From Bryobacter aggregatus MPL3 (GTDB taxonomy: Bacteria; Acidobacteriota; Terriglobia; Bryobacterales; Bryobacteraceae), in assembly GCF_000702445.1 (NCBI RefSeq), contig NZ_JNIF01000003.1:3658001-3722000 (forward strand): a stretch of 64,000 bases of DNA. Direction: 5' to 3'. The notes under the pieces were generated by a model. It was not told the origin of the DNA and did no database searches. It saw nothing but the letters and a program-made list of their open reading frames with translations. The translations under genes and the position numbers were made by a program. Positions 3,234 to 59,089 of this stretch are shown one piece after another. Numbering within the stretch: position 1 is the first letter of the stretch; every line of letters starts with the position of its first letter.

Positions 3234-3300
3234 GAGTACCGGATTTGAACCGGCTCCCTCAGAACCTGAATCTGATGCTCTACCAATGAGCTAACTCGCG
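3230..3300 (-). tRNA. tRNA-like element, anticodon CAG, degenerate acceptor stem
   Basis: Reading the minus strand, the element has a 4-bp D stem (GCTC/GAGC), a 5-bp anticodon stem (TCAGA/TCTGA) around the loop TTCAGGT, a 5-base variable loop, and a T arm with TTCAAAT closed by GCCGG/CCGGT. The anticodon reads CAG, which would be leucine, but leucine tRNAs have a long variable arm and this one does not. Only four acceptor pairs next to the T arm form (GAGT/ACTC); the outer three positions mismatch, and no CCA is encoded. It could be a tRNA pseudogene, a tRNA-derived RNA or an unusual tRNA. The directly following terminator suggests it is, or was, transcribed. Confidence 0.55.
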
Positions 3301-58669: not shown

Positions 58670-58693
58670 CGGCAGCAAGGCTTAGAATGGTGT

Positions 58694-58765
58694 GAGGAGG
58701 CAACGCCCTCCTTCCCATTGTGGAAGATCATGTCCGGGACGGCCCGGCCCTTAACTCAGGAGGGC
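58694..58765 (+). promoter_or_regulatory. Candidate guanidine-II (mini-ykkC)-like riboswitch leader
   Basis: Upstream of the SugE/Gdx gene, two hairpins lie in tandem. Hairpin 1 pairs GAGGAGG (58694-58700) with CCTCCTT (58707-58713) around the loop CAACGC. Hairpin 2 pairs CCGGG (58734-58738) with CCCGG (58743-58747) around ACGG, exactly the conserved guanidine-II loop ACGR. GCCCTCCT (58705-58712) on the 3' side of hairpin 1 is perfectly complementary to the Shine-Dalgarno AGGAGGGC (58758-58765). This fits a switch in which ligand-bound hairpin 1 frees the ribosome-binding site. The first loop deviates from ACGR, so this remains a candidate. Confidence 0.55.
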
Positions 58766-58768
58766 TTT

Positions 58769-59089
58769 ATGGCCTGGACTTCACTCTTCTTTGCTGGACT
58801 ACTCGAAATTCTGTGGTCCTTCCTCATGAAACAATCGCAGGGCTTTACGAAGCCCGTTCCGACTGTTTTGACACTCCTGACGATGGGCGCAAGCTTTGCC
58901 TTACTTTCCTATGCCATGAAGACCCTGCCGCTCGGCACGGCCTACACCATCTGGACCGGGATCGGCGCGGTGGGAGCTTTTCTTGTCGGCATTCTGATCT
59001 TGGGGGAACAGTTCAACACTCTTCGTGTTCTGGCTTGTCTCCTCATCGTATCGGGGCTGGTGCTGATGAAACTATCGAGTGTCGATTAA
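58769..59089 (+). CDS. SMR-family guanidinium exporter (SugE/Gdx-like)
   Basis: A 106-residue small multidrug-resistance protein with four helices. MAWTSLFFAGLLEILWSFL carries the essential glutamate (LLEILW), and GTAYTIWTGIGAVGAF matches the SugE/Gdx branch, which exports guanidinium in exchange for protons rather than drugs. The ATG with AGGAGG eight bases upstream is chosen over a longer frame. The leader looks like a guanidine-II riboswitch. Its stop overlaps the convergent DUF4262 gene. Confidence 0.9.
   Translation: MAWTSLFFAGLLEILWSFLMKQSQGFTKPVPTVLTLLTMGASFALLSYAMKTLPLGTAYTIWTGIGAVGAFLVGILILGEQFNTLRVLACLLIVSGLVLMKLSSVD

Follow-up and report, generated by a model that had tools for sequence, protein, structure and literature searches.

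A guanidine-II-like leader with a six-base P1 loop upstream of a Gdx-type exporter gene in Bryobacter aggregatus

Guanidine-II riboswitches are described as two ACGR tetraloop hairpins that bind two guanidines cooperatively. In the 64,000-nucleotide stretch of the Bryobacter aggregatus MPL3 genome analysed here (contig NZ_JNIF01000003.1; hereafter the window), an initial annotation had placed a guanidine-II-like element before a Gdx-type gene, with a canonical second hairpin and a first hairpin whose loop, CAACGC, indeed deviates from ACGR. The locus raises the question whether these two hairpins form a real RNA element, whether the six-base loop is a variant or a degenerate form, and which pairing could control the gene. 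We consider it probable that the element is a translational ON riboswitch of the guanidine-II type, carrying a six-base variant of the P1 loop and switching between P2 and a third hairpin, P3.

The gdx gene and its leader

The gene downstream of the hairpins encodes an SMR-family protein that matches PF00893 and scores 110.9 bits against PRK11431.1 SugE, which is under the cut-off of 126 for this model. The best PDB match is to the Gdx-Clo guanidinium exporters (6wk5/8vxu), and the Gdx signature residues E13, W16, S42, Y59, and W62 are all present. W16 separates the Gdx from the Qac subtypes (PMC7695847), and, judged by its signature residues, the exporter is Gdx and not Qac. The features of the locus are as follows.

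58683..58688, plus strand: probable -10 box TAGAAT, placed by A+T peaks in 76 aligned leaders
58695..58712, plus strand: P1 hairpin, with AGGAGG (58695-58700), loop CAACGC (58701-58706), and CCUCCU (58707-58712)
58705..58712, plus strand: proposed P1-arm anti-Shine-Dalgarno, exact complement of 58758-58765, without covariation support
58711..58726, plus strand: middle hairpin CUUCC/GGAAG between P1 and P2, competing with the outer P1 pairs
58734..58747, plus strand: P2 hairpin CCGGG-ACGG-CCCGG, a canonical guanidine-II tetraloop hairpin
58746..58766, plus strand: P3, the putative expression platform, GGCCCUU (58746-58752) with GAGGGCU (58760-58766)
58758..58763, plus strand: Shine-Dalgarno AGGAGG, read from the sequence
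58769..59089, plus strand: gdx/sugE gene, ATG at 58769, encoding a guanidinium exporter (SMR family, Gdx subtype) of 106 residues

When the 76 leaders were aligned, A+T content peaked at -40 to -38 and at -17 to -12 relative to the GG of P1. A consensus scan of the leader gave no full sigma-70 match; the A+T peaks suggest a promoter that would start the transcript at P1, at about 58694-58696, which would place P1 at the very start of the mRNA. No terminator was found in the leader, and control of gdx by the leader is therefore probably translational. Elsewhere in the window, a tRNA match on the minus strand at 3234-3297 (49.7 bits) is confined to positions 4-67 of the 71 in the model, and is possibly an incomplete or unusual tRNA.

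The leader shares much with guanidine-II (mini-ykkC, RF01068). P1 (58695-58712) and P2 (58734-58747) are tandem GC-rich hairpins separated by more than 13 nt, in keeping with the spacing of at least about 13 nt known for this class (PMC5486947), P2 carries the canonical ACGG tetraloop on a 5-bp stem, and the element lies, without a terminator, directly upstream of a guanidine gene (gdx), next to its ribosome binding site. ACG is present in both loops, as required for CG/CG kissing pairs, in the window and in all 76 leaders; the search pattern fixed ACG, and the nine orthologues from the same family came from a protein search instead. What differs is the P1 loop, which has six bases (C-M-ACG-H; CAACGC in the window) instead of an ACGR tetraloop, the score below the Rfam cut-off of 32 bits, and a conserved P3 overlapping P2, which is not a rule in 21 canonical leaders. 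Because the hairpins, the P2 loop, the ACG bases, and the gene context agree with guanidine-II, and the loop of P1 and its Rfam score do not, we classify the element on its sequence as a guanidine-II-like hexaloop variant and not as a consensus member. P3, the Shine-Dalgarno hairpin typical of the hexaloop group, is also formed in the window. It masks part of the Shine-Dalgarno sequence and begins with the GG that ends P2, and 22 nt lie between the end of P2 (58747) and the ATG of gdx (58769).

The element is recognized by an independent model

The RF01068 model does match the window element, at 20.3 bits against a gathering cut-off of 32 (E 0.22 in the initial scan and 0.207 genome-wide). However, a match inside secA scores higher (22.5 bits), so that the RF01068 score is at chance level in this genome, and Rfam was set aside as the sole test, being below the cut-off and uninformative here. 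Rfam gave no match to guanidine-III or guanidine-IV at the window element. The low score, equalled by random places in the genome, could be read as a sign that two GC-rich hairpins arose by chance within a GC-rich leader, as could unconstrained folding of the whole leader, which gave a z of only -0.66. We hold this to be next to impossible, since it is already refuted by a covariance model trained on 59 proteobacterial leaders without any Acidobacteriota (models R1/R2). With the proteobacteria-only model, the window element reached 51 bits (genome-wide E 2.9e-9) and the next match had E 0.055, which leaves the window element as the sole strong match; the nine family leaders were detected as well. 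Moreover, the layout is shared by these nine orthologous leaders and 66 proteobacterial ones. Sequence comparison thus confirms that the two hairpins preceding the Gdx/SugE gene are genuine, did not arise at random, and belong to a conserved RNA. The initial annotation had named the lack of an RF01068 hit as a ground for refutation; as the element is below the cut-off yet real, this would have misled.

Distribution and conservation of the hexaloop form

The comparison of orthologous leaders in related Acidobacteriota that had been proposed proved informative: a protein search yielded nine more gdx leaders within the family, followed by SugE proteins 60-72% identical, and all of them carry the same two hairpins in the same layout. 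A pattern scan of reference genomes returned at least 68 sites directly followed by an SMR gene, and the merged set holds at least 76 distinct Gdx leaders, 66 from Proteobacteria and 10 from Acidobacteriota. Their common layout consists of a hexaloop P1, a variable middle hairpin, and P2, which bears out the proposed guanidine-II-like element. By sequence, the hexaloop form appears to recur in Alphaproteobacteria and in some Acidobacteriota. A sample of 240 Alphaproteobacteria, surveyed by class, gave only a handful of matches, with a hexaloop gdx leader in four genomes (G667, G684, G709, and G732), none of which is among the genomes detected by the Rfam model. Among variant loci from Proteobacteria and Acidobacteriota, none of the 18 scanned reached the Rfam cut-off, nor did any of 10 in another scan. 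A pattern search of the phylum added one further match (L024), model R1 gave weak matches in other Acidobacteriota families, with an SMR match at none of those loci, and viral contigs gave 7 pattern matches, none with an SMR gene.

The P1 stem follows (G)AGG/CCU(C) across the group, and its loop follows C-[A/C]-ACG-[U/C/A] in the 76 leaders. The hexaloops are CCACGU (53 leaders), CCACGC (9), CCACGA (7), CAACGU (4), CAACGA (2), and CAACGC (1); the search pattern fixed C-[A/C]-ACG and left the last base free. This last base is U in 57 leaders, C in 10, A in 9, and never G. Canonical guanidine-II RNAs have A or G at the last loop base. Compensatory changes were found at two of the four core pairs of P1, the outer ones (GC to AU and AU to GC). 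Of the two options left by the initial annotation, a variant or a degenerate P1 loop, the first therefore stands and the second does not: a hexaloop conserved in 76 distinct leaders is, on this comparison, a variant and not a product of decay.

The middle hairpin folds in 74 of the 76 leaders and is variable in sequence, with both-side changes at all three counted pairs, although only 74.5% of the cells are paired, owing to the alignment register. P2, whose canonical nature had been recognized correctly, has the same 14 bases, CCGGGACGGCCCGG, in 74 of the 76 leaders; the inner 12 were set by the search pattern except for one R, and the outermost pair was free.

P3 is the better supported sequestering element

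Across the leaders, P3 was defined as the pairing of the Shine-Dalgarno region with a strand made up of the terminal GG of P2 and roughly five bases after it. When these strands were swapped between the 76 leaders, the own duplex averaged -11.1 kcal/mol and the swapped ones -9.05 (z -8.1), and with one leader per distinct strand z ranged from -6.7 to -2.2, values that are inflated by the relatedness of the leaders. Relatedness can hardly explain the variety of pair types: position 4 of P3 is C-G in 27 leaders, A-U in 18, G-C in 8, and U-A in 6, thus all four Watson-Crick types. Both G's common to P2 and P3 are used in 65 of the 76 leaders, and five more leaders that had no part in the test (L169, L200, L204, L205, and L206) also form P3. 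Judged by this covariation, P3 is a conserved sequestering element of the group. In the 21 canonical gdx/sugE leaders an overlap of P3 with P2 was not a rule (z -1.4); an element of the P3 type is present in some canonical relatives (L207, L225, and L248). At -9.7 kcal/mol, P3 of the window has only moderate stability.

The initial annotation had proposed another sequestering strand, the 3' arm of P1 (58705-58712), with a ligand-stabilized P1 releasing the ribosome binding site, which would make P3 secondary. The exact 8-base complementarity on which this was based, between 58705-58712 (GCCCTCCT) and 58758-58765 (AGGAGGGC), is present in the window, where the first two of the arm's bases belong to the loop of hairpin 1. 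In most leaders, CCUCC of P1 faces the Shine-Dalgarno GGAGG, forcing P1 during folding raises Shine-Dalgarno accessibility by over 0.1 in 23 of the 76, such an arrangement can be seen by eye in a canonical relative (L040), and in E. coli the anti-Shine-Dalgarno was placed in the P1-P2 linker (PMC9094411). Nevertheless, the swap test for the P1 arm gave a z of -2.4, which became +0.4 after removing duplicates, the own combination beating the row median in 32 of the 76 leaders, and in the ensemble of the window the Shine-Dalgarno pairs with the P1 arm at about 0 and with P3 at 0.65. The complementarity arises because both sequences are near constant. A P1-arm switch is therefore unlikely.

Three other pairings were considered. 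An outer 5-bp helix around P1, AAUGG/CCAUU, was rejected because AAUGG overlaps the probable -10 box, and is thus probably not transcribed. Pairing of P1 and P2 strands through CGUCC/GGACG was rejected as a conserved feature, the letters being constant across leaders. AGGCCA, from the 5' arm and loop of P1, is complementary to UGGCCU at the start codon in most leaders, and two of them (L100 and L108) show matching changes, AAGGCA/UGCCUU. This pairing could be a further OFF pairing; we do not regard it as demonstrated, given a weak swap test (z -2.3 for the short form and -0.8 for the longer one). In the window, the P1/start-codon complementarity involves 58697-58703 and 58769-58776.

Proposed mechanism and ligand

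The anatomy makes competition between P2 and P3 the likely switching step. With no ligand bound, the terminal GG of P2 would pair just upstream of the start codon, and P3 would mask the Shine-Dalgarno. P1 (loop C-A-ACG-C) and P2 (loop ACGG) could kiss through their CG/CG loop bases, and guanidine would bind and stabilize the kissing pair. P2 would then keep the shared G's, P3 would lose its basal pairs, the ribosome binding site would open, and Gdx would be made. The translational ON logic of the initial annotation is judged to be right. Forcing P1 and P2 in ViennaRNA, a folding model without a kissing term, did not generally reproduce the opening: it increased Shine-Dalgarno accessibility by over 0.1 in 29 of 76 leaders, and in the window lowered it from 0.34 to 0.26 under the same model. 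Loss of the two basal pairs need not abolish P3. In E. coli, a deletion that removes the P2 region renders gdx constitutive (PMC13064478).

Kissing and guanidine binding are expected by analogy with guanidine-II loop crystals, in which the ACG bases kiss, guanidine occupies the Hoogsteen edge of G, where it stacks against the closing G and is held in place by the A and C phosphates, and the fourth loop base is extrahelical (PMC5486947). The hexaloop keeps ACG, with two additional bases separating A from the closing G in the tight turn of the pocket, whereas P2 keeps the complete canonical half-site. Binding is expected on these grounds, and the guanidine site of P1 may be altered or lost by the insertion.

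The same insertion could have changed the ligand, so that an RNA of guanidine-II shape would sense another guanidino or cationic compound exported by SMR proteins. The position of the inserted bases at the P1 pocket fits this, as does a last loop base that is mostly a pyrimidine instead of R and never G. In addition, SMR transporters also carry substituted guanidines (PMC10829512), and the sugE-associated motifs GGAM-2 to -6 did not bind guanidine (Lenkeit et al. 2020, PMC7736828). Against this, the P2 half-site is fully canonical, the exporter carries the Gdx and not the Qac signature, and one hexaloop motif with a perfect P3 (L169/L259, G671:C114:45268-45321, in an Acetobacteraceae MAG labelled Rhodovastum atsumiense) lies upstream of a UAAP1-UAAP2 gene pair (TIGR03425/TIGR03424, PF09347), the family to which the carboxyguanidine deiminase subunits CgdA and CgdB belong (PMC11410670). 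A second class of guanidine genes, of the CgdA/CgdB type, under the hexaloop RNA favours guanidine, and this gene context supports guanidine as the ligand; a changed ligand seems to us improbable.

Relation to known guanidine-associated RNAs

The closest relatives with a tetraloop, L207 (Alphaproteobacteria) and L225 (Gammaproteobacteria), show the same order of P1, middle hairpin, P2, and P3, with P3 overlapping P2, and precede SugE proteins that are 62-68% identical; their P1 loop, in contrast, is the canonical ACGA tetraloop. The hexaloop form thus grades into accepted guanidine-II RNAs. Guanidine-III and guanidine-IV are likewise guanidine ON switches before sugE, but their pseudoknot and terminator architectures (PMC12186494 and PMC7736828) are absent here. 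GGAM-5 is similar in occurring mostly in Alphaproteobacteria and mostly upstream of sugE, sometimes of other genes whose function is unclear, and differs in being reported from one phylum only, against two for the hexaloop RNA, a comparison by taxa and gene context (PMC7736828). In these terms, the hexaloop RNA may be GGAM-5, in which case guanidine binding has already been looked for and not seen. We found no earlier description of the hexaloop variant in the literature covered.

We tentatively entertain the idea, without regarding it as the likelier case, that the hexaloop RNAs of Alphaproteobacteria and part of the Acidobacteriota form a distinct guanidine-II subclass, unseen by current models, with a platform overlapping P2 and one of the P1/P2 guanidine sites removed or remodelled, which would make them one-site or differently tuned switches. 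Either way, a natural combination of a canonical P2 with a six-base P1 loop probes the need for both guanidine sites, and whether the tight turn beside the closing G is essential. The covarying P3 offers a concrete, mutable expression platform, where the guanidine-II platform has so far been called putative. The form has been overlooked by current models, and its recognition would extend annotated guanidine control to genomes where Rfam finds nothing.

Several further loci were observed. A Sphingopyxis genome carries a second copy of the hexaloop motif, immediately behind sugE and ahead of nuoA (L200, G667:C47:14165-14236). In Brevundimonas, the motif precedes a membrane protein of 84 residues that has no Pfam match (L106/L195), and in a Mesorhizobium MAG it is followed by a 59-residue small protein and then a cyclodeaminase-like ORF (L151/L198). 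At L206, around 1500-1560 on the minus strand, a hexaloop P1 upstream of a SugE gene is combined with a P2 loop that reads GCGA and not ACGR. Finally, Endozoicomonas sp. G2_2 (G669; L222 and L058) carries both forms, a canonical guanidine-II before a non-sugE gene and the hexaloop variant before sugE.
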